Assembly (NCBI GenBank): GCA_900553815.1
Contig: USEY01000004.1
Location: 1-64,000, forward strand
Direction: 5' to 3'
Length of the DNA: 64,000 bases
DNA from: an uncultured Bacteroides sp.
GTDB taxonomy: Bacteria > Bacteroidota > Bacteroidia > Bacteroidales > Bacteroidaceae
Position numbers and translations under genes: made by a program. The notes under the pieces were generated by a model that did no database searches, was not told the DNA's origin, and saw only the letters and a list, made by a program, of their open reading frames with translations. Numbering within the stretch: the stretch's first letter is position 1; each line of letters starts with the position of its first letter. This document shows positions 88-62,070 of the stretch, piece by piece.

Positions 88-164
88 GGTTTCAGATTGG
101 TTTCAAGGCGTGAAACTATTGGTTTCTCCGTATGAAACCATCAGTTTCAAGGCATGAAACTAAA
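88..164. repeat. Intergenic array of seven 11-bp half-units (22-bp period)
   Basis: Seven consecutive 11-bp blocks start at 88, 99, 110, 121, 132, 143 and 154. Each carries GTTTC or its complement GAAAC, giving three 22-bp units at 99, 121 and 143, each an inverted repeat such as GTTTCA-n5-TGAAAC. It is 3' of the permease gene ending at 266. No ORF uses it. Confidence 0.8.
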
Positions 165-265
165 ATGTCCTGACGGATTTTGTCAGACGAAGCTAGACTG
201 CTTGTTTCTCTTTTCAGCTTGATGACAATAGACTGAAACTGTACTTTAAATGAAAGAACCTTGGG

Positions 266-1483
266 TTATTCATAACGGATGGCTTCTATCGGATCGAGGT
301 CGGCTGCTTTCTTGGCTGGATACCATCCGAAGAAGATACCTGTCACGGTGCAGACCGCAAACGAGAGAAATACACTCCATGGTTGGATATAAATGGGCCA
401 GTGTGCCACGTTCTTTACAATAAACGAAGCTCCACAGCCAATAACTACACCTATCAGACCACCGGTGATACTGATGAGAATTGCCTCGATGAGGAATTGT
501 GACAAGATATCAATGCCACGTGCTCCTACTGACATACGCAAACCTATTTCGCGAGTACGTTCGGTAACTGATACATACATAATGTTCATGATGCCGATGC
601 CACCCACAACCAGTGAGATACCGGCAATGCAGGCCAGCAGTGTAGTCATCAGATCGGTGGTCGAATTCAGCATGGAACTCAGTTCTTGTTGTGAGCGGAT
701 AGTAAAATCGTCATCGTCACTTTCTTTCAGCTTATGATTGCGGCGCAATATTTCGCTAATCTCTTCAGTGGCCTTGTCTGTCATATCTTCGGTCAGAGCA
801 GAAGCGAATATACCTTGTAGGTAGGTTTGTGCCAGTAGTCGTTTCATGACAGTGGTGTAAGGAGCCAGTACTACATCGTCCTGGTCCATACCCATGGAGT
901 TGTAGCCTTTGGATTTTAATACACCTACAACTCGGAAAGGAACCTGGTTGAAACGAATAATTTTGCCAATAGGGTCCTGGTTCGGAAACAGGTTGTCAAC
1001 AATGGTCTTTCCGATGACGCATACTTTAGCTGATACCTGAATGTCAGCTTCCGTAAACATTTCACCTTCTTCTACGTTCAGCTGTCTGATTTCGAGGTAG
1101 TCAATTCCTACGCCACTCACAGAAGAAGGGTAGTTGTTATTGCCTGCAATGAGCTGGCCTGATGAGGATACCTCCGGACTGACGGCTGACACGAAGTTCG
1201 TTTCATCTCGTAGCGATTCATAGTCAGTCAGTTTCAGTGTCTGCATGGAGCTTGGGTCTTGCCGAACGCCACCACGCATATCAGCACCGGGATGAATCAT
1301 AATCATGTTTGAACCCATTTCTGAAATTTGTGCCTGGATGCTTTTCTTCGACCCTTGTCCGATGGCTAACATGGTGATGACCGAAGCTACACCAATGATG
1401 ATGCCAAGCATGGTGAGAAAGGCACGAAGCTTGTTGTTGGCCAGGGCTCTCAAGGCTATTTTGAATAGGTTTGTTCCGTTCAT
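266..1483 (-). CDS. MacB/FtsX-type ABC transporter permease
   Basis: This 405-aa inner-membrane permease belongs to the MacB/LolC/FtsX superfamily. One N-terminal membrane helix (about residues 17-42) is followed by a large periplasmic MacB_PCD-like domain. Three C-terminal helices begin near residue 283, with the family motif around VTERTREIGLR. It lacks an ATPase domain, which the next gene upstream supplies. Family members act as mechanotransmitters that push substrate through a periplasmic adaptor and outer-membrane channel rather than carrying it through the inner membrane. It is the last gene of the tolC-macA-ATPase-permease operon. The substrate (drug, peptide or lipid) cannot be read from sequence. 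Confidence 0.92.
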   Translation of the reverse strand: MNGTNLFKIALRALANNKLRAFLTMLGIIIGVASVITMLAIGQGSKKSIQAQISEMGSNMIMIHPGADMRGGVRQDPSSMQTLKLTDYESLRDETNFVSAVSPEVSSSGQLIAGNNNYPSSVSGVGIDYLEIRQLNVEEGEMFTEADIQVSAKVCVIGKTIVDNLFPNQDPIGKIIRFNQVPFRVVGVLKSKGYNSMGMDQDDVVLAPYTTVMKRLLAQTYLQGIFASALTEDMTDKATEEISEILRRNHKLKESDDDDFTIRSQQELSSMLNSTTDLMTTLLACIAGISLVVGGIGIMNIMYVSVTERTREIGLRMSVGARGIDILSQFLIEAILISITGGLIGVVIGCGASFIVKNVAHWPIYIQPWSVFLSFAVCTVTGIFFGWYPAKKAADLDPIEAIRYE

Positions 1484-1518
1484 AATATTTTGTTTATAAA
1501 TCGTTTATTGTCCCTTCC

Positions 1519-2271
1519 TTAATCTTCGTCGCTCTTAGGCAAAGCTGCCAGGGCTTCGGCTGCCGACAGAATATGGGTGTTTTCTTTGTCTTCAATCACA
1601 TGACCGTCACGCAGTCGTATGTTTCGGCTGCTATATTGTGACAAGTCAGGATTGTGTGTGACAAAAATGATAGTTCTTCCTTCGGCATGCAATTTCTGGA
1701 AAAGAACTAGAATTTCAAAGGATGTTCGGGTATCCAAATTACCTGTAGCTTCATCAGCCAGAATAACAGATGGATTGTTTACCAAGGCGCGTGCGATGGC
1801 TACTCGTTGCATCTGTCCACCTGACATCTGATTGGACTTGTGCTCCAGTCTATCTCCCAAGCCTACGGCTATCAACGCTTCAACGGCACGTTTTCTACGT
1901 TCGGCTGCTGAGACGGACGAATTATACATCAGTGGAAGCTCTACATTCTCAACGGCTGTCGTCTTAGGCAACAGATTGTAGTTTTGGAAGACAAAACCAA
2001 TTTTTCTGTTGCGCAATATGGCTCGTTGGGGCTTAGACATGGTGCGTACTGAAACGCCGTCCAGCAGGTATTCACCAGAAGTTGGCGTATCCAGGCATCC
2101 TAAGGTGTTCAGCAGCGTAGACTTGCCAGACCCGGATGTTCCCATGATGGTGACGAATTCACCTTCGTGAATGACGAATGATATCCCACGCAAGGCATGT
2201 ACTACCTCGTCACCTACCAGGAAATTACGCTTTATATTCTGTAGTTCTATTACAACTTTCTTATCGTTCAT
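1519..2271 (-). CDS. MacB/LolD-type ABC transporter ATP-binding protein
   Basis: This 250-aa cytoplasmic ATPase powers the adjacent permease. Walker A is at residues 44-52 (GTSGSGKST), the signature is MSGGQ at 149-153 and Walker B VILADE is at 169-174, followed by the TGNLD segment typical of the MacB/LolD group. In E. coli MacB the ATPase and permease are fused; here they are separate genes 35 bp apart, as is usual in Bacteroidales. Only 3 bp separate its start from the stop of the adaptor gene upstream, which indicates one transcript. Confidence 0.93.
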   Translation of the reverse strand: MNDKKVVIELQNIKRNFLVGDEVVHALRGISFVIHEGEFVTIMGTSGSGKSTLLNTLGCLDTPTSGEYLLDGVSVRTMSKPQRAILRNRKIGFVFQNYNLLPKTTAVENVELPLMYNSSVSAAERRKRAVEALIAVGLGDRLEHKSNQMSGGQMQRVAIARALVNNPSVILADEATGNLDTRTSFEILVLFQKLHAEGRTIIFVTHNPDLSQYSSRNIRLRDGHVIEDKENTHILSAAEALAALPKSDED

Positions 2272-2274
2272 AAC

Positions 2275-3510
2275 TTATTTCGCGTTTTTCTTTTTGTTTT
2301 TATCGGGTGGGCCTGGCATGAACGGGCTTCGTTCGCTTTGTCCACTGTTGGGCATCATTTCATTGCCAGGTATGGCACCTTGGCCGATGGTAGCTTCAGT
2401 TACGACTTCAGTGCCTTCGGCAATACCATCAAGTATTTCGGTATTTATACCATTGGATATACCAATCTTGACAGCATGTGCAGTAAAAGTATTTTCTTGA
2501 CGAGTCCAGACCTTATGTTCGGCTTCGCAATCGTTTACAATGGCTTCTTTGCCAATCAGCTCTGGGTCGGGATTGAAGCGCAGTGCCCGTGCCGGCACGC
2601 AGAGTACGTCTTTACGGTCCAAGGTATAGATATTGACATTGGCAGTCAAACGAGGTTTCAGTTTCAGTTCGGGGTTGGGAGCTGAGATGACAACTTCGTA
2701 TGTTACAACCGTACTTGATGTAGAAGATGAACTTGACGAAGATGTTGAGGATGCATCGCCCAGGCGGATTTGTGTTACTACACCTTCAAATGTATCGTTG
2801 GGATAGGCATCAACTGTAAAGGTTGCACGTTGTCCTTCTTCTACACCGCCTATGTCTGCTTCATCCACGTCTGCCACTACTTGCATTTGAGTCAGGTCGG
2901 CAGCAATGGTGAAAAGGGTAGGTGTTTCAAATCCAGAAGCTACAGTTTGTCCTTCTTCTACATCCTTGCTGATGACAACTCCGTCGATGGGTGAAGTAAT
3001 GGTGGCATATGACAGGTTACGTTCAGCCTTGGCTAAGGCTGCTTGGCTACTTTCATAGTTGCTTTTGGCCATCTTATAGTTATAAAGCGACTGCTCATAG
3101 TCTGTATCGGCTATCAGTTGTTTCTTATGCAGTCCTTCATTACGTTCGTATAATTTCTTCTGGTATTCATATTCAGCCTTGGCACCATTGTAGGCTGCTT
3201 GCTGAGTAGCCACTTCTGTTTGCAAAGTGACGCGGTCCATTTCGGCTATAAGTTGGCCTTTAGTTACTACCGAGTTATAGTCAACATAAATTTTATCGAT
3301 AATACCTGACACCTGTGTTCCGACCTCAACTTCTGTTACAGGTTCAATGGTTCCTGTGGCTGTAACCGACTCGGAGATTTCTCCTTTGTTGGCTTTAGCC
3401 GTCAAGTAGCTGATTTGGTGTTTGGCTTTTGCTCCGCTGAAAAGCCAGATGCCTCCACCTACCACAATGATTGCGGCAGTGGCAATGAAAATCATTTTTT
3501 TCTTGTTCAT
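2275..3510 (-). CDS. MacA/HlyD-type periplasmic adaptor subunit
   Basis: This 411-aa membrane-fusion protein links the inner-membrane pump to the TolC channel. An N-terminal membrane anchor (residues 6-25) precedes a barrel-sandwich half with VSGIIDKIYV (about 68-77), a coiled-coil hairpin (about 95-165) and the returning lipoyl half ITSPIDGVV (171-179). I chose the ATG at 3510; an in-frame ATG 69 bp upstream would overlap tolC and add a non-signal-like leader. Residues 254-267 are almost pure Ser/Thr in the beta-barrel region, using mixed codons, and probably form a flexible loop. Confidence 0.92.
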   Translation of the reverse strand: MNKKKMIFIATAAIIVVGGGIWLFSGAKAKHQISYLTAKANKGEISESVTATGTIEPVTEVEVGTQVSGIIDKIYVDYNSVVTKGQLIAEMDRVTLQTEVATQQAAYNGAKAEYEYQKKLYERNEGLHKKQLIADTDYEQSLYNYKMAKSNYESSQAALAKAERNLSYATITSPIDGVVISKDVEEGQTVASGFETPTLFTIAADLTQMQVVADVDEADIGGVEEGQRATFTVDAYPNDTFEGVVTQIRLGDASSTSSSSSSSTSSTVVTYEVVISAPNPELKLKPRLTANVNIYTLDRKDVLCVPARALRFNPDPELIGKEAIVNDCEAEHKVWTRQENTFTAHAVKIGISNGINTEILDGIAEGTEVVTEATIGQGAIPGNEMMPNSGQSERSPFMPGPPDKNKKKNAK

Positions 3511-3541
3511 GACAATCGTTATATGAATGTTTGTTTTTCTA

Positions 3542-6551: not shown

Positions 6552-6562
6552 GCCTGTGATAA

Positions 6563-9322: not shown

Positions 9323-9406
9323 GCTAACTGTGGATATTAGCGGGCTAACTATGGACTTTGGAACTCTAAAGAGGGACTTTAGCGAGCTAAAGAGGGATAT
9401 TAGCGA
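9323..9406. repeat. Intergenic array: four 21-bp units
   Basis: Units start at 9323, 9344, 9365 and 9386, exactly 21 bp apart. Each follows the pattern gCTAA...GGA..TTAGCg. Unit 3 is an inverted repeat (CTAAAG-n5-CTTTAG), and units 1 and 4 have GCTAA/TTAGC arms. The array lies 3' of the aldolase gene, between convergent genes. Confidence 0.8.
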
Positions 9407-23677: not shown

Positions 23678-23807
23678 GAAAAAGACGCGCGTCTTTGCAG
23701 AAAAACACAGGCGTCTTTCGATAGAAACACAGGCGTCTTTGGGGTAGAAACACGGGCGTCTTTTGGTAGAAACACAGGCGTCTTTCAGTGAAAACACAGG
23801 CGTCTTT
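23678..23807 (+). repeat. 22-bp-period array with inverted cap (copy 1 of a dispersed element)
   Basis: It begins with the perfect 16-bp palindrome AAAGACGCGCGTCTTT (23681-23696). Five direct copies of ACACAGGCGTCTTT follow at 23705, 23727, 23750, 23772 and 23794, with steps of 22, 23, 22 and 22 bp. The capping arm AAAGACGC can pair with any of the downstream GCGTCTTT ends. It lies between convergent nqrF and the CbiL gene, and copy 2 is at 46941-47072. Confidence 0.88.
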
Positions 23808-24023
23808 GGGGGACCTGATAGCTGTGGTTTGATAATATGCTGATTATTAGCTTATTATTATTTTAGTATCAATGGTTAATGATTAATGATAAGAAGGGGG
23901 AGGCGCAGGAGCGTTCTCCTCTTTTTTATGGTGGCTTGGTAGAAACGTGGCATGCCGCACGGCTCCCCGTCCGCATGGTCGTCCCGCACTCACCGCGGGC
24001 TCTGAAGTATTGCGCAGCCCTTC

Positions 24024-29848: not shown

Positions 29849-29927
29849 AACAGATACGGCTGCGTGAGCTCACGCAGCCGTATCTGTTGGTCAACGCAGC
29901 CGTATCCGTAAGCCGATGCAGCCGTAT
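29849..29927. repeat. 40-bp perfect palindrome plus 22-bp direct copies
   Basis: 29849-29888 is a perfect palindrome centred at 29868/29869. Its right-arm core CGCAGCCGTAT (29873) recurs at 29895 and, with one change, at 29917, exactly 22 bp apart. The plan is one inverted arm followed by direct copies, as in the 23.7-kb array, but with an unrelated sequence. It lies between the convergent MATE and choloylglycine hydrolase genes. Confidence 0.88.
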
Positions 29928-29943
29928 GTGTAAATGATAGCGG

Positions 29944-36846: not shown

Positions 36847-38259
36847 TTATACGTCGCGTCCGGGGCGCAGCTTTTCTGCGTCGTTGTAGCACAAGATGGC
36901 GTTGACCAGTGTGGCTGCCAGGTTGCTGCCTCCTTTCCGTCCTTCCACTATCAGCTTGGGAATGGAGGTGAAGGGCTTGACGCTGTGTTTGGACTCTTGC
37001 ACGTGGACGAAGCCTACAGGAGCGGCAATGATGCCGGCAGGATGGGCATGGCCCTTGCGGATGAGGTCGCACAACTCCATGAGCGCAGTAGGAGCATTGC
37101 CAAAGACGTAGAGCGCATCGGGATGTTCCTCAACAGCCAGTCTGATGCCGGCCTGCGTGCGGGTAATGCCTTTGTCGGCTGCCAACCGGGCCGTGCGTTC
37201 GTCGTTCAGGTAGCACTTCACTTCCACGCCAAGCCGTTGCAGGGCGCCTTTGCGTATGCCGCTGGCCGCCATGGTGACGTCGGTGATGATGGTTTTCAAC
37301 TGTCCACCAGCCAAGGCTTCGTAGAGGGTTTCCACCGCTCCACTGTCCACCCGGAGTAGCTGCTCCATTTCGAAGTCAGCCGTGGTATGAATGGCATGAA
37401 GCAGTGCCCATTTGTGACCAAGGGGGAGGTCGGGATTGCGCAGTTCGCCCTCGATGGTGCGGAAGCTGCGTATCATGATGTCCTGCCCGATGTGGCCGGT
37501 CGCCTGTCCCTGCTGTTCGCTGTAGTAGCCGCGGGGCGTGATGAGGTGGCGGTTCCATTCGTAGGACTGCGAGTTGCCGATGATGATGACGGTGAACATG
37601 TCCACTTCCTCGGGGTTGAAGGCATCGAGGGTTGTGAGGTTTACAGTCTGTTCAGTTCGTCCGGCCTGGCGCACATAGCCTACCGGGGTCTGGGGCGAGC
37701 GTCCGGCTTGCAGGAACAGTTCCTTCAGCCGGTAGAGCTGCCAATAGCGTTCCTTGCTCTTGGGGTTGTAGACGGCTGTCACGAAGTCAGCCTCGGCAGC
37801 CGCGCGGATGCGCCGTTCTATCTTTTCCCACGGTGTGAGGAGGTCGCTCAGGGAGATGACGCAGAAGTCGTGTCCCACGGGGGCACCCAGTAGCGACGCC
37901 GCCTTCTGGAAGGCACTGATGCCGGGCAGCACCTCGATGTCTACCTGGCTGCCGCGTTCGCGCTTCATTTCGTATATCAGCGGCGCCATGCCATAGATGC
38001 CGGCATCGCCCGAGCTGATGACGCAGACGCTCTGACCCTGTTCGGCCAGGCTGAAAGCTTGCTCGGCGCGGTCGCGCTCGCGCTTCATGCCACTGTCTAT
38101 GCAAGGTGTGCCGGGGCGCAGGAAGGGTTGGATGAACTGAAAGTAGTATTTGTAGCCCACTACGACGTCGGCTTCTCCGATGGCTTGGGCTACGGCGGGC
38201 GTGATGTCTTGCTCGCCTCCCGGGCCTATGCCGGCCACGGTTATCTTGGATTGTTTCAT
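36847..38259 (-). CDS. cbiHC: Fused precorrin-3B C17-methyltransferase (CbiH) and precorrin-8X methylmutase (CbiC)
   Basis: This 470-aa protein has two enzyme domains. Residues 1 to about 245 are CbiH/CobJ (VAGIGPGGEQDITP, SSGDAGIYGMA, EVLPGISAFQKAASLLGAP), which methylates C17 and contracts the ring. Residues from about 262 are CbiC/CobH with the catalytic His291 in HAIHTTADFE and IITDVTMAASGI, which moves the methyl from C11 to C12. These steps are several reactions apart, so channelling is less obvious. I use the ATG at 38259. It is the first gene of the four-gene corrin run. Confidence 0.92.
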   Translation of the reverse strand: MKQSKITVAGIGPGGEQDITPAVAQAIGEADVVVGYKYYFQFIQPFLRPGTPCIDSGMKRERDRAEQAFSLAEQGQSVCVISSGDAGIYGMAPLIYEMKRERGSQVDIEVLPGISAFQKAASLLGAPVGHDFCVISLSDLLTPWEKIERRIRAAAEADFVTAVYNPKSKERYWQLYRLKELFLQAGRSPQTPVGYVRQAGRTEQTVNLTTLDAFNPEEVDMFTVIIIGNSQSYEWNRHLITPRGYYSEQQGQATGHIGQDIMIRSFRTIEGELRNPDLPLGHKWALLHAIHTTADFEMEQLLRVDSGAVETLYEALAGGQLKTIITDVTMAASGIRKGALQRLGVEVKCYLNDERTARLAADKGITRTQAGIRLAVEEHPDALYVFGNAPTALMELCDLIRKGHAHPAGIIAAPVGFVHVQESKHSVKPFTSIPKLIVEGRKGGSNLAATLVNAILCYNDAEKLRPGRDV

Positions 38260-38347: not shown

Positions 38348-38503
38348 GCACCGCTCGGATACAGGGTATGTGTACCGCTCGGATACAGGGTACGTGCACC
38401 GCTCGGATACAGGGTATGTGTACCGCTCGGATACAGGGTAGGTGTACCGCTCGGATACAGGGTACGTGCACCGATCGGCTTCAGGGTAGGTGCACCGATC
38501 GAC
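38348..38503. repeat. 24-bp tandem array, six units plus partial
   Basis: Units begin at 38348, 38372, 38396, 38420, 38444, 38468 and (partial) 38492, exactly 24 bp apart, with core CCGCTCGGATACAGGGTA. The last two units diverge towards CCGATCGG(C). The array starts 3 bp past the lptG stop codon and runs towards the cbiHC start. The unit length is a multiple of three with no stops, so several frames stay open across it. Confidence 0.93.
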
Positions 38504-44175: not shown

Positions 44176-44270
44176 AGGCCTGTGTGCAGAGAGGACCGGG
44201 CTTAAATTCAAAGATAAACGAGCCTGGTTGCAGGGACTAACCGGCCTAATGGAATAAATGAATGAGTCTG
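44176..44270. repeat. Degenerate 22-bp-period array, five copies
   Basis: A 7-bp motif of the form RRGYYTR (AGGCCTG, GGGCTTA, GAGCCTG, CGGCCTA, GAGTCTG) recurs at 44176, 44198, 44220, 44242 and 44264, each exactly 22 bp apart. The intervening bases vary. It lies between convergent trmN and the GH9 gene, just before a hairpin terminator. Confidence 0.55.
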
Positions 44271-44322: not shown

Positions 44323-46854
44323 TTATTCTTGGCTTTGTCCGTAGCCGAGAGCCTCGGTCAGCGGCACAAACCGGTAGCCTTTGCGCTGTAGTTGCCTGAT
44401 GAGCTGTTCAAGCGGGCGTTTATAGAACTTGTCGGTGCGGCGGTCGTCGGTACCGAAGTGAACAAGCATCAAATGGCCGTTCATCCCCTCTTTCTTCTCT
44501 ACTTCCATCACTTTGTTCAGGATTTCCTTGCTGCTCCGATAGTTTTTCATGTCGGGCGTGGTATAATCGGCATTGGTCAGGGTGCCGGGAGTGAAGTTGA
44601 TGAGTTGCAGGCCCATGGCTTGTGCCCAGGCCGACACTTGCCGGTTGTAGTACTCATAGGGTGGGATGAAGAAGGGAGCTTCCTGCGGGGTGATGCCAAA
44701 AGGACGCATGACCTCAAAGCTGCGACGCAGGTCGTCCTCAAATTCCTGACGGTTGACGAGTAGCGAGTCGCGGTCTTCCCACGAGGCATAGAGCAGGTGT
44801 CCGTAGCTGTGGCTGCTGACATAATGTCCGTCGGCCTTTAGTTGTTTCACTACGTCGGGATAGAGTTCGAAGAAGCGGCCGGTGAAGAAGAATGCTCCCT
44901 TGATGCGATACTTTTTCAGTGTGCGCAGGATGTCGGCAGCCCCGTCGGCCTTGTCGTGGGCGGTGAAGACAAGGGTGAGCTGCTTCTTGGCAGGGTCGGT
45001 GCGCGTGATGCAGCCGTCGTGGTAGACGTTGCGGCTTATATTGCCTCCGCCTTGCCTCATGCCTTCCTTCTGCATAGCCGACAGGTAGTAGGTAAGGCTG
45101 GCCGTGCCGTCCATGGTAGGTTCGTTGGTGGAGTAGTCGTGCAAGGCGTCGTGATAGACCATGAGGTCGGGTTGGAAACGCTCATAGTCCTGACCGGGCA
45201 CACCGGGTATGCCGGTCATGTTGACCCCGCGCAGGCTTTCAAAGATGCTGCGATAGACAGGGCCGTCGACCAGTCCGCCGGTGGTGTTGCCCGCCCCGGC
45301 ATTGAGCAGCGAGGAGTGGGGCTGCGACGGATAGTCGCCATGCAGGGGCAGCTCAACTATCATGCTCGTGCCCCATGGATTGCACCCCAGCAGCCAGTCG
45401 AGCAGAGCGGTCTCCATTTCCAGGTAAGTGCTGTCGGCCGTCAGTTCGCGATAGAGCCTGCACTGGGTCAGCATGGCCGACGTCAGGTTGTTGGAGCACC
45501 AGATGTAGGGGATGCCATGCAGGAAAGGACTTTCCACGGCTTTCTCATGTGTACGTACGATGCCGGCCCGCAGATTGCGGATGAACTCGCGGCTGATGCG
45601 CTCGTTGCCCGAACGGGCCAGCCAGTAGTGGCCCATGTTCATGAACGGATACCACTGGTAGTGGCGCGCACTGTCGGCTCCCATCCAAGGGGTCACGGGT
45701 TCGCGCCGCCCGTACTCCAGTGCCTGTTTGAGGTAAGCCTCGTTGCCCGTCTTGTGATATAGCTCCATGGCTCCCAATTCCATGTCGTCCGTCCAGTTGT
45801 CTTCTTCATATATATAAGGAGAGAGGACGGAGGCCGTCTGGCAGACGCCGGGATGCTTCACGCCCTCCTCGTAGGCATCGGCAGCCTTGCGGCCTATTTC
45901 TTCGGCAAACTCGGGGTAGAAATCTTTCAGGATGGACGCGCCCAGTGCAAAGCAGGAGGCAAACTTGCCTGCCGTACTGGCCACGCCGGTGGTGGCGTTG
46001 GTGTACTTGCCACGCTGCTGGGGCTCGCCGCTACAGAAGTAGACCGGGCGTCCGTTGCCAGGGCCGTAGCCATAGTCCACCTTGTCCTTGTTGGGCAGGC
46101 GCATGCCGGCATGGTCGCGGTCGTCGGCTATCTGGTTGTGGAGTTCACCCTTGGCCGGGTTCATGCGGTTGAGCCAGTCGAGTCCCCACTTTATCTCGTC
46201 CACGATGTCGGGGATGCCGTTGGCGCCCGGCTTGCCGTCGGCACCGTATGCGTCGGCAAACGATTCGGGATTCTGCTGGTAGGCAAACATCATCTGGTAG
46301 ATGGCGTTGGCCGATGTGGTGGTGTATTGCAGGTAGTCGGTGGCATCGTGCCAGCCGCCGCGCACGTCGATGTGCTGTCCTGTCTTGGTGGGGTGGTAGA
46401 CGATGTAGCCGTCGTGCACGTGGCAGCTGTCCTTCAGGTAGGGATTGTAGCCGCAACGCTGCTGGCGCATGTAGTTGAGCAGGAAGTCGGCCGTGCCGTC
46501 GTAGACGCGGGTGTTGATGGGGAAGCTGGGGGAGAGGGCTTCTCCGGCCTTCAGACGGTAGGTGCCCGGGCGGGTGAACTGGCTGAAGTTGAGCCGGTAG
46601 GTAGACTGCATGTTGCCATAGCGGCCGGTGGGCTGGGGGGCATGAAAGGTTTCTACCACCTGGCCGGTGTAGTCGTCTATCAGACTGTACTCGTGCAGGT
46701 CTACAGCCTCTTCGCTCATGAATACGGCCACCTTGACCGACTGGGGCAGGTAGCCAAGCTGGTTGATGCGTATCCACTCGTCGGCGTTGGCCGTCAGTGC
46801 CAGGCACAAGGCCGACAGGGCCAAAAGCGTTTTTCTGTTCTTCATGTTTTTCAT
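44323..46854 (-). CDS. Secreted GH9 glycoside hydrolase fused to a polysaccharide deacetylase (CE4-like) domain
   Basis: This 843-aa protein has a signal peptide (to about TANA, residue 24) and a CelD-type Ig-like N-domain (about 27-115). A GH9 (alpha/alpha)6 domain follows, with the catalytic-base motif GGWHDATDY (D170, D173) and the acid in YSTNEPTMDG. A NodB-like deacetylase domain ends the protein. There, motif 2 HSYGH is intact and VHFGTDD is present, but the usual TFDDGP is replaced by FTAHDKADGA and motif 3 lacks its Arg (PPYEYYN). The domain pair suggests a beta-glucan or amino-sugar glycan as substrate; this is inference. No SusC/D genes are adjacent. Confidence 0.9.
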   Translation of the reverse strand: MKNMKNRKTLLALSALCLALTANADEWIRINQLGYLPQSVKVAVFMSEEAVDLHEYSLIDDYTGQVVETFHAPQPTGRYGNMQSTYRLNFSQFTRPGTYRLKAGEALSPSFPINTRVYDGTADFLLNYMRQQRCGYNPYLKDSCHVHDGYIVYHPTKTGQHIDVRGGWHDATDYLQYTTTSANAIYQMMFAYQQNPESFADAYGADGKPGANGIPDIVDEIKWGLDWLNRMNPAKGELHNQIADDRDHAGMRLPNKDKVDYGYGPGNGRPVYFCSGEPQQRGKYTNATTGVASTAGKFASCFALGASILKDFYPEFAEEIGRKAADAYEEGVKHPGVCQTASVLSPYIYEEDNWTDDMELGAMELYHKTGNEAYLKQALEYGRREPVTPWMGADSARHYQWYPFMNMGHYWLARSGNERISREFIRNLRAGIVRTHEKAVESPFLHGIPYIWCSNNLTSAMLTQCRLYRELTADSTYLEMETALLDWLLGCNPWGTSMIVELPLHGDYPSQPHSSLLNAGAGNTTGGLVDGPVYRSIFESLRGVNMTGIPGVPGQDYERFQPDLMVYHDALHDYSTNEPTMDGTASLTYYLSAMQKEGMRQGGGNISRNVYHDGCITRTDPAKKQLTLVFTAHDKADGAADILRTLKKYRIKGAFFFTGRFFELYPDVVKQLKADGHYVSSHSYGHLLYASWEDRDSLLVNRQEFEDDLRRSFEVMRPFGITPQEAPFFIPPYEYYNRQVSAWAQAMGLQLINFTPGTLTNADYTTPDMKNYRSSKEILNKVMEVEKKEGMNGHLMLVHFGTDDRRTDKFYKRPLEQLIRQLQRKGYRFVPLTEALGYGQSQE

Positions 46855-46940: not shown

Positions 46941-47072
46941 AAAAAGACGCCTGTGTTTTCACTGAAAGACGCCCGTGTTTCCACTGAAAGACGCCTGTGT
47001 TTATACCCCAAAGACGCCTGTGTTTTGACTGAAAGACGCTCGTGTTTGTCCAGCAACACAGGCGTCTTTTTC
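46941..47072 (-). repeat. 22-bp-period array with inverted cap (copy 2 of a dispersed element)
   Basis: AAAGACGC starts at 46943, 46965, 46987, 47010 and 47032 (steps 22, 22, 23, 22). The inverted arm AACACAGGCGTCTTT is at 47055-47069. Read on the minus strand it has the same plan as the 23.7-kb array: inverted cap, five copies of ACACAGGCGTCTTT-like core, and the 23-bp step between copies 2 and 3 with a GGGGTA spacer. It lies 3' of the fimbrillin operon and 5' of the GH9 gene. Confidence 0.88.
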
Positions 47073-47334: not shown

Positions 47335-49569
47335 TCAGTAAATGAACTCGACGTCGGACTTGACAAAGCGCAGGATGCGCGTGTCCTTGGGGCCTCCACC
47401 GTTGAACTGTAGCCCCCACTGCCCGTTGTACCAACCGCTGCCGTTGGCCGCATAGCAGGCAAAGAGCAGCTTGTTGTGGTTGATGCCGGCCGTGCTCCAT
47501 TGCGCGCCGGGGCCGTAGAAGGTGACCGATTCGTCCTTCAGGCCGTTGTGCTTGTTGTAGACCTCGAAGTGGAAGGTCTGGGGCAGGGTGATGGTGCCGA
47601 GGCTGATGTCGCTGCGGCTGCCCGACTCCACGAACACCTGCTTGTTGCCCTCCCAGGGGCTGTAGACGTTGTAGGGGCCTCCGCTGCGGTCGATGTACAT
47701 CCACCATTCCTGGAAGATGCGGTTGTAGTATTCGATGGGTGGAAGCTCGTAGCCGTCAGGGGCCAGCAGATGAGGGTCGAGCTGGTTGGTGTTCGATATG
47801 CCACCCGCTACAAATCCGTCGTGCGTGGCCACTCCGTCCTTTTCCACTACGCGCATCATCTTGTTGCCCTGGCACGACCATGGCCACAGCTCAAGATACT
47901 CCTCGGGCGTGCATTGGTTGAGGTACTCCAGCACGCTGAGACCTTGCTGTGCGGCGGGGTCGCTGACGGGCGACACTTGGTCGTCGAAGTTGCGCGAGTC
48001 GCCGCGGGCATTGTACTTGCACCAGTAGACACCGTTCATCAGAGTGACGGGCAGCCCGTAGTTGCGTCTGATGATGGTATATTCCTCGCGTCCGGTGCCA
48101 TCGGGGTTGCTCAGTACGATGCGCGCCCACTGCTTGCGTCCGTCGGCCTGCTGGTCGTTGGGGCGCCATCCGGCTACGATGCGCCAAGTGCCCGGTGTTT
48201 CGTCAGACTCCATAGCCTTGAGCCAGGGTGAGTTGGGGTCTTCGTACTCTATGCTCACCTGTTTGCCGGCTACGGGCGTCAGGGTGCCCAGTTCGTTGTC
48301 TATGTAGCGGTCGAAGTCGCAGGTCAGGCCGTCGGTGAAGGTCAGCTGTCCGCCAAACTGGTTTTCATTGGGCTTCAGGCGGAATTTGATGCGGTCGGCA
48401 TAGACGTTGTCCAGCTGCTTGAACTTGATGGGGCAGGTCACTTCGGTTACCGCCTTGCCGGGTGTGCGCAGGGGGGTGCTGATGCGGAAGCTGTTGTTCA
48501 GGTATCCGTTGCTGCCGTCGGTCAGCGGCTCGATGCTGATGCCTTGTGCGGCTGCCTCCTGTGTCAGGAGCTCCACGTCGGTGTCGGCGGCAAGGGCAAG
48601 GAGTAGCTGTGTTGCGGTGTAGGGTATCTCGACGATATCGAAGCTGTCTTCCTGGATGACGTTGACGCCGCTGGGCAGTTGCGAGCGGTCGCGGTCGACG
48701 CGCACCACGCCCGACAGGTCGGCTGTCGCTCCGGGCTTGTCGCCCTCGTTCCATTCTTCTATTTCCATTTTCAGCTCAATGTCGTTGCCGGTGAGCTTGA
48801 TGGTATAGACGGCGTTGCGCTTGATGGTGGCTGGCAACATGCCGGTCAGGGGTTTGGATTGCCCGTTCACCGTGGTGTGGATGGTCACTTCCAGCTGCTC
48901 GTTTTGTTGTTCGCACAGATAAAAGAGGCCGTTGACACTGGTGGCCTGGGGCGTGTCGAATTTCTTGTTCAGGTCTTCGTAGGTGGTTTGAGGAGCTGTT
49001 TGCACGTCGGCTTTTTCGTAGAGGTAGCCGCTTTGTGCCACGTGGGCAATGTTGATGCTGTTGACCGCAGCCATGTTGGTGGCCATCAGCAGGTCGACGC
49101 GTGCCACCCCGTGTTTCATGTCGAGGCTCACGGCCCGTTCATTGCCTTGCAGGGTGGTTCGTCCGGTCATGAAGCACGAGGGCGCCTTGCCGGGCTCCGA
49201 GGTCAGCTCCAGGAAGTCGTCTTCGGCCATGCCGGCGTAGATTGGCTGCTTGTTCACGGCTTCACGGCTGTTGGCCATGAAGTAGACGTTGCCCTTCATG
49301 CCGGTCACGTCCAGTTGGAACTTGTTGCCTTCGTAGGGAGTAAGTTCGGTGAACAGGTGCTTCAGTTTGCCGCCTTCAAAGTGGTAAGCCGACATTTCGT
49401 TCAGTACGTTTTCTCCGGGCAGGTCCGATGGCGAGCCTTCGAGGTTGTATGATTTGGGCGACAGGGCCACGGTGGTGGTGCCTTCGGGCAGCGCAGGTTC
49501 ATCATGTTTGTCCGAGCAGGCACCGAGAGCAAGGCCCAGCAGCAGTGTGAGTGCAAGATTCTTTTTCAT
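47335..49569 (-). CDS. Fimbrillin-like lipoprotein with C-terminal lectin-fold (FISUMP-like) domain, presumed tip adhesin
   Basis: This 744-aa protein has a lipoprotein signal (LLLGLALGACSD). The first half reads like a FimB/Mfa2-type two-domain fimbrillin fold. The second half has a block of the kind found in FISUMP/C-type-lectin-fold domains (NGVYWCKYN, then APDGYELPPIEYYNRIF). It is a paralogue of the next gene upstream: both share GKQ(V/L), VAGWRPND, RNYGLP/LNYGLP, WCKYN-RGDSRNF and a matching C-terminus SDVEFIY. The RGDS tetrapeptide and the terminal strand are notable. The role as surface tip protein is inference from family and operon. Confidence 0.72.
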   Translation of the reverse strand: MKKNLALTLLLGLALGACSDKHDEPALPEGTTTVALSPKSYNLEGSPSDLPGENVLNEMSAYHFEGGKLKHLFTELTPYEGNKFQLDVTGMKGNVYFMANSREAVNKQPIYAGMAEDDFLELTSEPGKAPSCFMTGRTTLQGNERAVSLDMKHGVARVDLLMATNMAAVNSINIAHVAQSGYLYEKADVQTAPQTTYEDLNKKFDTPQATSVNGLFYLCEQQNEQLEVTIHTTVNGQSKPLTGMLPATIKRNAVYTIKLTGNDIELKMEIEEWNEGDKPGATADLSGVVRVDRDRSQLPSGVNVIQEDSFDIVEIPYTATQLLLALAADTDVELLTQEAAAQGISIEPLTDGSNGYLNNSFRISTPLRTPGKAVTEVTCPIKFKQLDNVYADRIKFRLKPNENQFGGQLTFTDGLTCDFDRYIDNELGTLTPVAGKQVSIEYEDPNSPWLKAMESDETPGTWRIVAGWRPNDQQADGRKQWARIVLSNPDGTGREEYTIIRRNYGLPVTLMNGVYWCKYNARGDSRNFDDQVSPVSDPAAQQGLSVLEYLNQCTPEEYLELWPWSCQGNKMMRVVEKDGVATHDGFVAGGISNTNQLDPHLLAPDGYELPPIEYYNRIFQEWWMYIDRSGGPYNVYSPWEGNKQVFVESGSRSDISLGTITLPQTFHFEVYNKHNGLKDESVTFYGPGAQWSTAGINHNKLLFACYAANGSGWYNGQWGLQFNGGGPKDTRILRFVKSDVEFIY

Positions 49570-54842: not shown

Positions 54843-54875
54843 GTCTTTTTGTTCCTATAAATTACTTTTGTGAAA

Positions 54876-57565: not shown

Positions 57566-58767
57566 GCCGGCCTCCTTTCGCCTGTCTGTGGCTTGACCTG
57601 CCCCAATACCATGCCGGCCAGGGTAAGCACAAAGAAGCCCCGGTTGTGGGTGAAGGTGGCATCGGCAATGCCCTCGATAAGGAAAAACAAGAATACGCAC
57701 CAAGCCAGGTAGTAGCCCTTCAGGTCGCCCTGCCTCAGCAACGCAGGTGTGCGCCGCAGGAAAAGAAACCAGAAGAGGATATAAAGTCCTACGCCCACCA
57801 CGCCAAATTGGGCAAGCTCAGGATAAAACGCATCGCATACAAACACCGGATTGTCCTTGCTCAGCCCCCACAGCTTGTCGAGCCCATACTGCGCATAGAT
57901 GGACGAGTATTGCTCGGCCGAGGCGAACGTGCCGAAGCTGGCCAACCCGCTGCCCAAGGGGAAATAGTCGCCCAGGATACGGGCCGAAGCCAGCATCATG
58001 GCCGGGCGGCTCCACATTTCGCGCGAGTTCATCATGCCGTCCACGTAGTAAATCACAATCTTGTCGTAGGCCATCCATACGGCTCCGCCCAAGAGCAGGC
58101 AACCCAGCGCCAACGTAGTGAAGTTGAATCGCATGCGCAAGCCGCTCTTCAGGTAGACGAGCAGCAGCACACCCACCAGCCAGAAGCCGTAAAACTTGGA
58201 GCGCGTGGACAGGAAGCCAATGCTGAGCAGCAGTATAAAGGCGGCTATGTCGCTCCACGAGAAGTCGCTGCAATACAGCAGCAGCAAGGCAGTGGCCACG
58301 GCAGCCGTAGCCAGTCGCGAGGGATGGCCGAAAAAGACGTAGGTCAGCCCCGACACGCCAATAATCAGGATGAAAGCGCCCATGGCCAGGCAGAGGACGG
58401 ACAGGATGTGCTTCTGCCGCCCGTTCAGTTGGGGAGCCACGATGTAGGCGCCAAAGAAGCCAATGAAAGGCTTCAGCTGGATGACAAAGTCCTTCAGGAT
58501 GGCACTGGGCGTATTGGAGGCGATGAGCAGCGAATAGGCCACGTAGAAAACAAGGATGCCACCCACCACCAGCAGCGGCCGCAGGTGCAACAGGCTGCGG
58601 CGTTCGTAGGCCATCTGGGCGGCAAACAGCAGCAGCACCAGTGCCAGCAGTTCGTCCGTGAAGCTGAAGGGGAGGCAATCGTAGAAGATGACTCCAAACA
58701 CATAGCTGACTATCAGGTAGAGATAAAACAAGCTATTCTTCGACAAAGCCAGGGACGAGAGTTGCAC
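57562..58767 (-). CDS. O-antigen polymerase/ligase-like membrane protein (Wzy-like)
   Basis: This protein of about 400 aa has ten or more membrane helices and a large periplasmic loop near GSGLASFGTFASAEQYSS. The late segment FYPELAQFGVVGVGLY is typical of the O-antigen ligase/polymerase (Wzy_C) group. It is expected to join or transfer repeat units at the periplasmic face. The start is uncertain: the only ATG (58845) would overlap wzz by about 70 bp, so I favour a GTG at 58767, just past the wzz stop. Both leave all membrane helices intact. Confidence 0.8.
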   Translation of the reverse strand: MQLSSLALSKNSLFYLYLIVSYVFGVIFYDCLPFSFTDELLALVLLLFAAQMAYERRSLLHLRPLLVVGGILVFYVAYSLLIASNTPSAILKDFVIQLKPFIGFFGAYIVAPQLNGRQKHILSVLCLAMGAFILIIGVSGLTYVFFGHPSRLATAAVATALLLLYCSDFSWSDIAAFILLLSIGFLSTRSKFYGFWLVGVLLLVYLKSGLRMRFNFTTLALGCLLLGGAVWMAYDKIVIYYVDGMMNSREMWSRPAMMLASARILGDYFPLGSGLASFGTFASAEQYSSIYAQYGLDKLWGLSKDNPVFVCDAFYPELAQFGVVGVGLYILFWFLFLRRTPALLRQGDLKGYYLAWCVFLFFLIEGIADATFTHNRGFFVLTLAGMVLGQVKPQTGERRPA

Positions 58768-58774
58768 GGCAGAT

Positions 58775-60370
58775 TCAGGACTTTTCAGAGGGTGATGGAT
58801 GCGGACAGGCCGTATGCGGACGAAGCAGACGGACGGTGATGACACCGACCGACAAGATAAAGGCTACCAGCATGGCCACCAGCAGCGTGATGGACTTCTT
58901 GGGGAAGACGGGCTTGGCCGAGCAATAGGCGGCGTCGATGACACGGGCTGCCTGCTCGTCGGGCGAGCTGACCAGGATGTTTTCCTGCAGCTTCTGCATC
59001 AGGAAGAGATACATGGTTTCCTTCAGCTTCTGCTGGCGCTTCATTTCTATATACTGGCGTTCGATGGTAGGCAATACGTCGAGCTGGGCATCGAGTGAGC
59101 GGTTTTTCTTCAGAAACTCGTCGAGGCTGGCGCGCAGGCTGCTGCGGGTAGCGGCCAGGGCTTCGGCCAGCATTTTCTGCTGTTCGTCGAGCTGCTCCTC
59201 GGTGCGCACCAGGGCAGGGTTGCCGGCTTCCGACACCATCAGCAGCCTCCGGCGCTCCAATACCAGCTGGTTGTAGACGGCCACGGCTTCCTCGCCCACG
59301 CCCTCCAGGGCAGGTACCGAGGCATAGCGGTTGGCGGGATTCTTCAGGTAGTCTATCACGTAGTCGAGCATCTTCAGGCGCGCTTCCATTTCCAGCACCA
59401 GGGCTTCTACCTCCTGACGTCCGGTCACGGCTGCCTTGGCATAGAGGGTAGGCTCGGGCACGTTGTGTTGCTTCTGATAGGCTTCTATCTCCACTTCCAG
59501 CTGCGAGAGTTCGCGGCTCACGGTGTCCAGTTTCTGGCGGACAAAGCGGCTATTAAGCCCTGCTTCCTTTATTTTGGTAGACATTGACTGGCGGTTGAAG
59601 GCCTCCATCAGGGCGTTGAGCAGGTCGCGTCCCCGCTGCTTGCTTTCGTCGTCGACAGACAGCAGGATGATGTCGGACACCGTCTCTTCCAAGCCCACGA
59701 ACAGGTCGTCGGACAAGTCCTCGTAGACCTTCTGCAGGGGCGTGATGCGGACATGCAGGGTGTAGCTGCCCGCAGGCACGGCGGCCGAAGGACGGGCTGA
59801 CAAGACGAGCGTGTCGCCTCCCGGCAGGCCGATGCGGCAGGGCAGTGCCGAGCCTGCAACCTCCACGTCGTCGGCAAACAGCTTGCTCTTGGCCTTTACC
59901 CGGCTTACGCGTGTGCCGTCCATTTCGATGGTCAGCTTCAGCGTTTCGCTCAGCGTGTCGAGGTAGGAGGGTGGGAAAGCCACGTCGAGCGGCTGCGAGT
60001 CGCCATAGAGCAAAACGCGCTTCAGCCCCTGCCAGCGACGCATCTCTACCTGATAGCCCACCGCCCGGATGGCTTCGGTCATGCAGCGGCGCGACTTGAC
60101 CAGCAGCACCTCGTTGTCGGCATTCATGCCCCCGGCCATGCCTCCCAGCAAGCCTCCCAGGCCTGTGCTTTTCAGCATTTTCATTTCCGATGCCATGCCG
60201 TCTTTCTGCTCAATGAGCTGCATGCGTGCTATAAACTCGTATTGCCGGGGCGTCATCAGCAGGAAGACGATGGCTGCCACTAGGCAGACGGCCCCGATGG
60301 GCACGTAGCATCTCCACTGCGCCAGGTAGCGGCTCAACAAGGCTCCTATGTGTACGTTTTCGTCGTTCAT
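58775..60370 (-). CDS. Wzz-type chain length determinant / polysaccharide co-polymerase
   Basis: This 531-aa protein has two membrane helices (about residues 22-40 and 490-510) flanking a long periplasmic region. The region is rich in coiled coil (about 270-460), with the Wzz N-terminal domain RQYEFIARMQLIEQ near residue 42. The late segment SAKPVFPKKSITLLVAML is the proline-containing second transmembrane region. It has no C-terminal tyrosine kinase domain. It sets polymer length with Wzy. It is the first gene of the locus, 49 bp downstream of the rhlE-like gene. Confidence 0.9.
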   Translation of the reverse strand: MNDENVHIGALLSRYLAQWRCYVPIGAVCLVAAIVFLLMTPRQYEFIARMQLIEQKDGMASEMKMLKSTGLGGLLGGMAGGMNADNEVLLVKSRRCMTEAIRAVGYQVEMRRWQGLKRVLLYGDSQPLDVAFPPSYLDTLSETLKLTIEMDGTRVSRVKAKSKLFADDVEVAGSALPCRIGLPGGDTLVLSARPSAAVPAGSYTLHVRITPLQKVYEDLSDDLFVGLEETVSDIILLSVDDESKQRGRDLLNALMEAFNRQSMSTKIKEAGLNSRFVRQKLDTVSRELSQLEVEIEAYQKQHNVPEPTLYAKAAVTGRQEVEALVLEMEARLKMLDYVIDYLKNPANRYASVPALEGVGEEAVAVYNQLVLERRRLLMVSEAGNPALVRTEEQLDEQQKMLAEALAATRSSLRASLDEFLKKNRSLDAQLDVLPTIERQYIEMKRQQKLKETMYLFLMQKLQENILVSSPDEQAARVIDAAYCSAKPVFPKKSITLLVAMLVAFILSVGVITVRLLRPHTACPHPSPSEKS

Positions 60371-60419
60371 GGGCGTGCGTTTTGGTCTCTCCGATTGTTC
60401 GTTTTTCTTTGTTCAGGGC

Positions 60420-61649
<1,230 letters not shown>

Positions 61650-61668
61650 GTTTTTTCCTTTTTGGACG

Positions 61669-61676
61669 CAAATATA
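61669..61676 (-). promoter_or_regulatory. -7 box of the rhlE-like gene
   Basis: TATATTTG on the minus strand matches TAnnTTTG exactly, about 20 bp before the ATG, implying a very short leader. Confidence 0.55.
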
Positions 61677-61757
61677 CAATTTTTCAGCTACACAGTGGAT
61701 AATGGCGGGTAGTTTCTTGGGAAAGAATAGGCTCAAGTTTGGCGAAGTCAAACTTGC

Positions 61758-61812
61758 AGAAGTTACAGAAGTTAAAAGAAGTTATCGCCCGTCAAGGCGG
61801 GCTTAGAAGTTA
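61758..61812. repeat. AGAAGTTA repeats around a small hairpin
   Basis: AGAAGTTA occurs at 61758, 61767, 61777 and 61805. Between the third and fourth copies is the hairpin GCCCG/CGGGC (61787-61791, 61798-61802). It lies just upstream of the rhlE-like promoter. Confidence 0.75.
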
Positions 61813-61940
61813 AAGCCGATAGTTTGGGGTGTATGGCCGACATATTTTTCACAAAGATATTAGCTTAAATACATTTGAAGTTGACAAGGGGACGAGGGGG
61901 TGAGTAGGCGAGGGGCAGATTTTTCAAATCCATATTAAAG

Positions 61941-62070
61941 CCCTTATCACTCACCACTTACCACTTATCACTCACCGCTCACCACTTATCACTTACCACT
62001 CACCGCTAATAAACGCTGCTCACCACCGATGCCCTATACTTACCACTCACCACTTACCACTTATCACTGA
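61941..62070. repeat. Heptanucleotide tandem repeats (CACTTAC/CACTCAC/CACTTAT)
   Basis: Ten consecutive 7-bp units fill 61941-62010, a 33-bp interruption follows, and three more units fill 62044-62064 with a partial unit after. Three units make 21 bp, close to the period of the other arrays. It ends just before the stop of the second helicase gene (62076). Confidence 0.88.

Follow-up and report, generated by a model that had tools for sequence, protein, structure and literature searches.

Intergenic arrays of unrelated sequence share a pitch of 21-23 bp in Bacteroides

Introduction

How do short tandem arrays along one stretch of bacterial DNA come to keep the same spacing while having no sequence in common? 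The question is raised by a contig of an uncultured Bacteroides sp. (GenBank assembly GCA_900553815.1, contig USEY01000004.1), of which the first 64,000 nucleotides, here called the window, were analysed. A first-pass annotation had listed eight arrays there, most with a period of 21-23 bp, and had placed them 3' of genes.

Arrays of the window

Autocorrelation of the stretches starting at 88, 9323, 23678, 29849, 38348, 44176, 46941 and 61941 gave top lags of 22, 21, 22, 22, 24, 22, 22 and 7, respectively, and in all eight the top lag reached p=0.002, the floor of 500 dinucleotide shuffles. Seven of the eight were also recovered by TRF, which returned only the final two copies (9366-9406) of the array at 9323-9406; the one missed at score 30, 44176-44270, is too degenerate, its identity at lag 22 being 51%. 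The arrays and their listed periods are thus borne out.

Six of them form the core set. Array A (96..162, plus strand, in the stretch 88-164) consists of three GTTTC-N7-GAAAC palindromes at a 22-bp pitch, the same motif that makes up the five-unit arrays of B. cellulosilyticus. Array B (9323..9406, plus) has four 21-bp units with imperfect GCTAA/CTAAAG palindromes (palindrome p=0.005). Array C (23678..23809, plus) opens with a short left arm, AAAGACGC, after which AAACACAGGCGTCTTT is repeated directly about five times at 22/23 bp. Array D (29849..29933, plus) is an inverted repeat of 18 bp, and two further copies of its right arm, ACGCAGCCGTATCTGT, come after it at 22 bp. Array E (44176..44270, plus) is a degenerate 22-bp array with no clear palindrome (p=0.80). 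Array F (46941..47072, minus) has a single left arm followed, at 22/23 bp, by five right arms (inverted-copy test p=0.01); it is an inverted copy of array C, the two forming a single family, and apart from this pair no common unit was recognised among the six.

The other two arrays, once put forward as possible members, were excluded, because the 24-bp period of the first (38348..38503, plus; palindrome p=0.53) does not fit the mode of 21-23 bp and the ACTYACC heptamer run (61941..62070, plus; lag 7) has no RNA fold (z -0.46). The former is probably a separate minisatellite, and palindromic arm pairs at 24 bp were absent from the scanned relatives. The window gave zero matches to Rfam and zero in a tRNA scan.

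The pitch in relatives

A spacing of 21-23 bp corresponds to roughly two helical turns of DNA. In the intergenic DNA of B. fragilis, taken from 1.2 Mb of chromosome, TRF gave 32 arrays, of which 26 had a period of 21-23 bp or its double and 18 had exactly 22 bp, where shuffles gave 0.0. The pitch was also quantised in a TRF-free scan, in which repeated palindromic arm pairs in intergenic gaps were compared with shuffles: spacings of 21-23 or 41-48 bp accounted for 65/65 arm pairs in the B. fragilis group (17 gaps; shuffles 0.3), 21/21 in other Bacteroides loci (8 gaps; shuffles 0.1) and 10/10 in B. cellulosilyticus (2 gaps; shuffles 0.1). The 21-23 bp peak was not seen in the small samples from other Bacteroidales (55 kb intergenic; eight arm pairs in five gaps, at 18, 18, 25, 27, 31, 36, 38 and 44) or E. 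coli (30 kb intergenic; a single arm pair, at 52). The excess over shuffled intergenic DNA that the first-pass annotation had asked to see is therefore present in relatives, and its proposal of a conserved period with unrelated sequences recurs across Bacteroides; its statement that no core sequence is shared stands between families and fails within them, since families recur at many loci. Many Bacteroides indeed carry a class of intergenic elements whose pitch, 21, 22 or 23 bp, depends on the family.

Palindrome families and fixed spacers

Many units consist of a palindrome of about 16-18 nt and a spacer of 4-6 nt; other arrays, such as C, D and F of the window, are direct repeats closed by a single inverted copy of the unit. 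An excess of palindromes was found in a set of 65 arrays with a pitch of 20-24 bp or doubles (38 from the B. fragilis group, 20 from other loci with the L030 duplicate dropped, and 7 from the window): 24 were palindromic beyond column-permuted controls at p<0.05, with a Fisher-combined value of 1e-16 that ignores same-family kinship, and 41 individually failed the test.

For the motif of array A, when spacers of 1-25 nt were permitted, the spacer was 5 nt in all 75 pairs listed of the 86 found (7/16 genomes), and the reversed-pattern control gave 0. B. cellulosilyticus holds 49 of these pairs, from 18 loci; its arrays have a 17-nt site at a 22-bp pitch, with five units in 14/18. The letters of the spacer are diverse, with 44 kinds of 5-nt sequence in the 18 arrays after strands were collapsed. 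In an unrelated family, ATCTT-N7-AAGAT, the pitch was 21 in five of six matches and 42 in the sixth (2/60 genomes; the reversed control matched in 1 genome). Since the length of the spacer is fixed while its letters vary, a constraint on spacing is indicated, which upholds the earlier suggestion of selection on spacing. Among 94 GTTTC units, the arm variants were 9 GTTTC/GGAAC, 5 GTTCC/GAAAC and 1 GTTCC/GGAAC; such mostly one-sided variation would be expected of independent half-sites. The AAACACAGGCGTCTTT family of array C, sought in 16 genomes, was found in none, and ACGCAGCCGTATCTGT of array D had one match elsewhere. The arrays do not qualify as CRISPRs, the spacers being only 4-5 nt in two families, against the unique spacers of tens of bp in a CRISPR, and Rfam being silent on the window.

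A proposed model of phased sites

The reading that we favour, tentatively, is that the arrays are phased sites for dimeric DNA-binding proteins, resembling BIMEs but without RAYT. Each family, made up of tandem sites of about 16-18 bp that are palindromic or closed by an inverted copy, at a pitch of 21, 22 or 23 bp and hence two helical turns, would be the docking platform of a candidate dimeric protein, the dimers lying on one face of the helix. Because they would pack there side by side, the pitch and half-sites would be retained while the spacer letters drift, and differences between families would reflect different or co-diverging bound proteins. An array would then have, between genes, a mode of action comparable to that of iterons or of BIMEs in E. 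coli. In favour of this reading are the quantised pitch, the fixed spacer length in two unrelated families, the excess of palindromic units, the mostly one-sided arm changes, the slower change of core than of spacer between species (below) and the precedent of iterons. A wider version, which we regard as doubtful, is a diversified operator-array system, nucleoid-organising or insulating, in which unrelated palindrome families, each with its own protein, would all keep to one two-turn pitch as a result of their proteins polymerising alike on DNA. To our knowledge, no nucleoid-organising or insulating system of such kind has been described.

Gene context and RNA folding

Convergent gaps hold arrays B, C, D and E. 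Array F and the two excluded arrays lie between same-strand genes, array F being 3' of 47335-49569 (minus) and 5' of a GH9 gene at 44323-46854 (minus), and the stretch 88-164 is 3' of a minus-strand gene, 266-1483. On the chosen gene map, from which the antisense ORFs 37387-37893 and 62181-63554 were discarded by judgement, all four window convergent gaps of at least 60 bp contain an array and divergent gaps contain none, the latter as the first-pass annotation had it. The strict 3' placement that it described was not supported in relatives. In the B. fragilis group and 30 Bacteroides loci together, divergent gaps held 9/56 TRF arrays, one of them counted twice, against an expected fraction of 0.227 (p=0.27), and in another count 6/37 (p=0.55), so that there was no significant depletion; in tandem gaps, a mild bias was seen, with 24/34 arrays nearer the 3' end of the upstream gene (p=0.024). 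It is to be noted that the gene calls come from a longest-ORF heuristic with no annotation, which misses arrays within spurious ORFs. The gap downstream of GH9 was rejected as an array hotspot across species, as the neighbours differ and a TRF array of at least 20 bp was present in 1/26 loci, a count in which the gene caller shortens the L030 gap and TRF overlooks the degenerate window array downstream of GH9.

Arrays in such places could act as RNA, in the form of serial stem-loops near gene 3' ends or between convergent genes that protect 3' ends or bring about weak or alternative termination; the single left arm of arrays C, D and F, with several right arms to pair with, would then make them multi-choice hairpins. 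The tandem-gap bias and the four occupied convergent gaps are consistent with this, as are the strong folds predicted for arrays A, D, F and C (z -7.7, -6.3, -4.9 and -3.6) and for two B. cellulosilyticus arrays (z -7.5 and -6.7). However, arrays B and E fold weakly (z -1.8 and -1.3), divergent gaps are not significantly depleted, and two-sided arm changes, at 1/94 units, are not in excess; moreover, hairpins have no obvious need for an exact 22-nt pitch, yet there were 0 departures from it among the GTTTC pairs listed. A local terminator scan of array C was near chance, and the G-U asymmetry of the arms relative to the gene strand, viewed by eye and uncounted, had no clear bias. RNA hairpins are thus a strong rival to the DNA-binding reading, a real possibility albeit on the unlikely side. 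The strong folding of the arrays is in itself an observation that speaks against phased binding, since binding to DNA does not require it.

Change of core, spacer and unit number between species

Conservation within the unit was measured in one family, on orthologous arrays of B. cellulosilyticus and B. timonensis; of 12 aligned array pairs, the count used the four in which both arrays were complete and in register. The palindromic core had 14/374 changes and the spacer 21/90 (p=3e-8), the spacer thus changing about six times more. When the badly aligned pair L273/L292 was left out (104/283 mismatches in its coding flanks, misaligned at a contig edge), the values were 11/306 and 17/75 (p=7e-7). 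With the same exclusion, the core changed at a rate similar to that of coding flanks (34/1436, p=0.23) and lower than that of non-coding flanks (33/363, p=0.005), although 21 of these 33 changes came from one pair; core conservation below the flank rate is not firmly shown. The spacer, in turn, changed faster than the non-coding flanks (17/75 vs 33/363, p=0.002), which the phased-binding model does not account for. A further complete pair, L275/L298, was omitted because it would have compared one array a second time (core 8/85, five of them in the inverted loop; spacer 1/20). Another test took 47 of the 65 arrays, those with a pitch of 21-23 and 2.3 or more units; only 32 of them had a core exceeding the spacer, although the choice of phase favours the core. 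Besides these results, the 41/65 palindrome failures, the direct-repeat make-up of arrays C, D and F and the seven altered or truncated pairs described next tell against phased binding, as does the weak contrast of core and flank.

Units also change locally. Seven of the 12 aligned pairs differed by unit loss, replacement or expansion or ran into contig ends; at one site L267 had five units and L294 one, and a unit was inverted in place between L275 and L298. Such changes, together with the carriage of families in MITEs, could be those of neutral minisatellites, functionless and MITE-spread, arising from a copying process whose inherent step is about 22 nt, such as hairpin-guided slippage or template switching. 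The varying copy number of the B. fragilis element F1 (below) fits this as well, and so does the lack of a firm difference between core and flank rates; a 23-bp B. fragilis locus, TR1, is indeed a published typing locus, highly diverse among 50 isolates (PMC7585543). On the other hand, the core of orthologous arrays changes far less than the spacer, spacer length is fixed despite diverse letters, five units are typical (14/18), and unit number was kept in four orthologous pairs (L270/L284, L266/L283, L273/L292 and L275/L286). A slippage process with a set step of 22 nt is not known to us, which also counts against the neutral reading, and we consider this reading rather doubtful.

Dispersal in MITEs

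Some array families are dispersed inside MITEs. In the window, array A is enclosed by a MITE-like element (64..263, plus) with terminal inverted repeats (TIRs) at 64-81, an exact CACGGCTCTTTCATTTAA, and at 246-263 on the minus strand with 2 mismatches; no target repeat was recognised at this element. Another exact copy of the TIR (38..55, minus) stands back to back with the copy at 64-81, 8 nt apart. The CACGGCTCTTTCATTTAA TIR was found in 8/16 Bacteroides genomes, and it bounds, on either side, an IS of 1530 bp whose transposase is of the ISAs1 type (NF033564, 197.7 bits against a cut-off of 70). Four aligned copies of the F1 element, with TIRs, have 5, 4, 4 and 3 units; a second element, F2, has other TIRs, and its site lacks the element in a sister genome.

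The position of F1, F2 and array A between TIRs, and the element-free sites in the sister genome, would suit subterminal repeats bound by a transposase and aiding MITE movement. However, of 11 ISAs1-TIR elements printed, only 3 had an array by TRF (a fourth, L218, had two F1 units by eye), and B. cellulosilyticus (G010), the genome richest in GTTTC arrays, had 0 copies of the TIR at up to one mismatch; by eye, no ISAs1-type TIR was found within 30 bp either side of its GTTTC arrays. This makes a transposase-site role improbable. RAYT-driven REP elements as in Proteobacteria, to which clustered intergenic palindromes, units in both orientations and the CGTC-tagged REPs reported in Bacteroidetes (PMC3733652, in the part consulted) might point, were rejected as next to negligible, because the Y1 transposase PF01797 was absent from three of four genomes searched (G010, G001 and G009; G008 had one 153-aa match), in a search positive in 5/14 control genomes, and the GTTTC family, with its 44 spacer kinds in 18 arrays, has no conserved tag by the palindrome.

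Comparison with known systems

Phased binding, the reading preferred here, makes two predictions through its pitch rule, namely that a shift of one unit by half a turn abolishes function and that the spacer letters are immaterial. The rule is independent of sequence and can therefore find new families directly. A positive outcome would point, in Bacteroides, to chromosome-binding proteins of one class or to an RNA device at 3' ends.

Iterons offer a precedent for the geometry: their repeats of 17-22 bp number about five at most, with helical phasing governing cooperative protein binding and half a helical turn abolishing the cooperativity (PMC4980987, as far as consulted). The likeness is one of geometry alone, in a site of 17 nt, a pitch of 22 bp and most often five units. 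Iterons belong to plasmid origins, whereas the Bacteroides arrays are chromosomal, palindromic, at 18 loci in one genome and of many unrelated families. REPs are intergenic palindromes, clustered and in taxon-specific families, and BIMEs are regularly spaced REPs in alternating orientation (PMC3733652 and PMC2817692, in the parts consulted). The Bacteroides arrays are likewise clustered intergenic palindromes, but without RAYT in 3/4 genomes and without the GTAG/CGTC tag in the GTTTC family; GTAG REP partners are, in the same parts, mostly 20-100 bp apart, in contrast to 21-23 bp over unrelated families here. PM2, a near-palindromic motif of B. thetaiotaomicron, was set aside as a promoter motif, tandem arrays being unmentioned in the portion consulted (PMC7366714).

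In a literature search at the level of titles and abstract openings, with subscription journals mostly outside its reach, the 22-bp pitch rule in Bacteroides was not recognised. The first-pass annotation knew of no named Bacteroidales element of this kind; this needs qualifying, as BrickBuilt of Porphyromonas gingivalis comes close. BrickBuilt is an intergenic MITE at 19 loci, with tandem 23-nt units, a leader, a tail and IS-shared TIRs; its units have a conserved and a non-conserved half and predicted stem-loops, default BLAST matched it only in P. gingivalis, homologues were reported in P. gulae, and repeats of 22, 23 and 41 nt are mentioned for strain W83 (PMC4596501, in the sections covered). 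The plan of F1 in B. fragilis is the same, units of about 23 nt lying between a leader and a tail in a TIR-bounded element, but BrickBuilt TIRs are IS5-type and the CACGGCTCTTTCATTTAA TIR of F1 and the window is ISAs1-type and not IS5-like; the GTTTC arrays of B. cellulosilyticus differ further in showing no ISAs1-type TIR and in having mostly five units. A pitch rule across unrelated sequences is absent from those sections (PMC4596501). TR1, an MLVA locus of B. fragilis YCH46, has four non-coding 23-bp units, AACATCCGGATGTTTTAATATAT, of the same palindrome family as the B. fragilis arrays found here, and serves as a typing marker, its pitch and palindrome unremarked in the passages on TR1 (PMC7585543). 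Should the pitch rule hold, the intergenic DNA of a major gut genus carries a whole class of regularly spaced sites, which the literature searched has so far recorded through a typing marker and, in a relative, through a single MITE family.

Anatomy of the array units

The eight tandem arrays of the window were confirmed at the places and with the periods assigned to them in the first-pass annotation. Arrays A (96-162) and B (9323-9406) are of the palindromic-unit kind, while C (23678-23809), D (29849-29933) and F (46941-47072) have a single left arm and, after it, several right arms, and E (44176-44270) is degenerate. In 24 of 65 arrays the units exceeded their column-permuted versions in palindromicity at p<0.05 (combined p of 1e-16 if independent), and an inverted copy of the unit lay within 60 bp in 22 of the 65 (p<0.05). 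The run at 61941-62070, kept outside this class, repeats the heptamer ACTYACC with a 21- and 28-bp higher order between two minus-strand DEAD-box helicase genes; 7- and 14-bp arrays are present also in other Bacteroidales. The GH9 protein encoded in the window is 80% identical to that of Bacteroides sp. SC0300 and 76-79% identical to those of most named species matched, which assigns the window to Bacteroides.

A fixed pitch in intergenic DNA of Bacteroides

The period was tested beyond the window on the DNA of relatives. TRF (score 50, periods 5-60), run on the intergenic part (117 kb) of a 1.2-Mb sample of B. fragilis Q1F2, returned 32 arrays, of which 18 had a period of 22 bp, three of 21, two of 23, one of 42, two of 44 and six of 13-17. 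Five dinucleotide shuffles of this DNA gave 0.0 arrays at 22 and 0.2 at 21, and the coding DNA, nine times larger, gave two at 22 and six at 21. Thirty Bacteroides/Bacteroidaceae loci (68 kb intergenic; two loci from the B. fragilis group) had 13 of 31 arrays at 22, three at 21, two at 23 and one at 44; other Bacteroidales (50 loci, 55 kb) had one at 22, three at 21, one at 23 and six at 14, and E. coli K-12, with 30 kb of intergenic DNA in 250 kb, yielded one array with a period of 20 and another with a period of 98. The proposal that unrelated arrays share a period holds, the 21-23-bp mode being common to relatives. Two TRF results stand by themselves: B. heparinolyticus has two arrays whose 23-bp units are nearly identical (L014, 2157-2579; 7.7 and 6.5 copies, 96-98% match), and a "92-bp array" of the B. 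fragilis group (L167, 2925-3187) consists of tRNA-Arg(acg) genes, three in tandem with a step of 92-96 bp.

A sharper pitch signal than that of TRF was obtained by scanning directly for identical palindromic arms (5+5 nt, span 13-19) recurring within 60 bp in the same gap, where pairs within one array are non-independent. The B. fragilis group, with 255 kb of gaps in 2.4 Mb, gave 65 pairs, 15 at 21, 22 at 22, three at 23, 24 at 41-46 and one at 48, with none at any other distance (shuffles, 0.3). All 21 pairs in other Bacteroides loci (63 kb) fell at 21-23 or 41-46. The ten pairs of B. cellulosilyticus, from 10 kb of gaps in 100 kb, were all spaced by 22 or 44. Eight pairs were seen in other Bacteroidales, at 18, 18, 25, 27, 31, 36, 38 and 44, and one in E. 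coli, at 52. Pairs came from 17 of 1051 gaps in the B. fragilis group, 8 of 267 in other Bacteroides loci, 2 of 43 in B. cellulosilyticus and 5 of 290 in other Bacteroidales, with 12, 11, 4 and 7 different arm 5-mers, respectively.

The clearest family is that of array A, GTTTC-N7-GAAAC. Allowing one mismatch, GGTTTCANGGCRTGAAAC was present in 6 of 16 Bacteroides genomes, with 21 copies in B. cellulosilyticus. A search of the same 16 for two units separated by 1-25 nt found 86 pairs in seven genomes, 49 of them from 18 loci of B. cellulosilyticus and 29 from B. timonensis, and none with the reversed pattern; the spacer was exactly 5 nt in 75 of 75 among the matches listed, and 14 of the 18 B. 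cellulosilyticus arrays have five units. Among 119 evenly drawn Bacteroidales, such pairs occurred in B. cellulosilyticus and in one further species, G180, where the three matches have steps of 21, 21 and 42, not 22; since the reversed control gave four matches in two other genomes, it is solely the uniform step that places G180 in the family. Among 60 genomes of the genus, two contain the unrelated ATCTT-N7-AAGAT (reversed control, one genome), with a pitch of 21 in five of six matches and 42 in the sixth.

Conservation of the palindromes and mobility of the arrays

In four orthologous arrays of B. cellulosilyticus and B. timonensis, changes had occurred at 5 of 220 arm, 9 of 154 loop and 21 of 90 spacer positions. 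A recount that omitted one pair, the flanks of which are misaligned, gave 11 of 306 for the core and 17 of 75 for the spacer (p=7e-7). Compared with the spacer, then, the palindrome is clearly conserved. Flanks had changed at 34 of 1436 coding and 33 of 363 non-coding positions, 21 of the latter from one pair; conservation of the palindrome below the neutral rate (p=0.005 against non-coding flanks) is therefore suggestive only. The spacer changes faster than these non-coding flanks (p=0.002; L266/L283, L270/L284, L275/L286), which the model proposed below cannot explain. By eye, two B. fragilis-group arrays also kept their palindromes against sister copies while the spacers drifted. An orthologous array in B. 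stercorirosoris has one unit inverted in place: between L275 and L298 this single unit's loop reads AAGCAAT in one species and ATTGCTT in the other, as if hairpins flip. Another site has five units in one copy and one in the other (L267, L294). The orthologue of L303 (L304, G003:C1:47780-53780) carries at about 3000-3400 an array well beyond six units of the drifted form GTTTTCCCCCTTTGGAAC.

Some arrays travel. F1 of B. fragilis is an element of ~560-580 bp with the unit GCCCGGGTATGCGGGCTCATCA and the terminal inverted repeat (TIR) CACGGCTCTTTCATTTAA; its four aligned copies hold between 3 and 5 units each. The F1 unit is limited to the two B. fragilis-group genomes among 16, and the element is absent from two corresponding sites of the sister species. 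F2 (~290 bp) has a different TIR and an element-free site in the sister genome. Eight of 16 genomes have the F1 TIR (none in the reversed control). In B. muris it bounds a 1530-bp insertion sequence that carries an ISAs1 transposase and has target repeats of 9 bp, and in the window it recurs around array A at 38-55, 64-81 and 246-263. Among 11 short elements bounded by the F1 TIR, TRF detected an array in only three. Given these mobility data, MITEs are one vehicle for the arrays, not their cause. An 892-bp element of B. timonensis with the ISAs1-type TIR (L224, 1501-2392) holds a 22-bp GGTGTAGCC array and apparent transposase remains, and its flanking repeat is ~18 bp versus 8-10 bp in others.

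Position relative to genes and possible function

The arrays had been described as lying 3' of genes and never in divergent gaps. Tandem gaps show a mild 3' bias, with 24 of 34 arrays nearer to the 3' end of the upstream gene (p=0.024). Divergent gaps, however, were not significantly depleted: the 37 B. fragilis-group arrays lay in 26 tandem, six divergent and five convergent gaps, against a background of 568, 214 and 188 (p=0.55), and 9 of 56 pooled arrays were divergent (p=0.27), so that equal occurrence there, which the first-pass annotation had named as grounds for refutation, remains compatible with the data, although the finding of a shared period is upheld. By our ORF calls, the 18 B. 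cellulosilyticus GTTTC arrays occupy 11 tandem, five convergent and two divergent gaps, mostly short.

Judged from sequence, the arrays may be DNA docking arrays for proteins, a reading we favor tentatively: dimers would bind one helix face at each palindrome, at a pitch of 21, 22 or 23 bp. Such dimers best fit the combination of fixed pitch, unrelated palindromes, fixed spacer length and free spacer letters, and one-sided arm changes fit half-sites. That the units act instead as RNA hairpins is somewhat less probable, but this reading is a strong rival given the strong predicted RNA folds and the 3' bias in tandem gaps. Neutral arrays made with a copying step are still less probable.

Comparison with known repeat systems

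No statement of the pitch rule in Bacteroides was recognized in the literature searched, as judged from titles and abstract openings. Among the array families of B. fragilis, one has as a member a locus already published for typing (PMC7585543). Parts of the arrays resemble both BrickBuilt (PMC4596501) and BIMEs. The REP/BIME tag was not found in the GTTTC family, a RAYT was not found in three of the four Bacteroides genomes searched (one hit in the fourth), and the TIR type differs from that of BrickBuilt.
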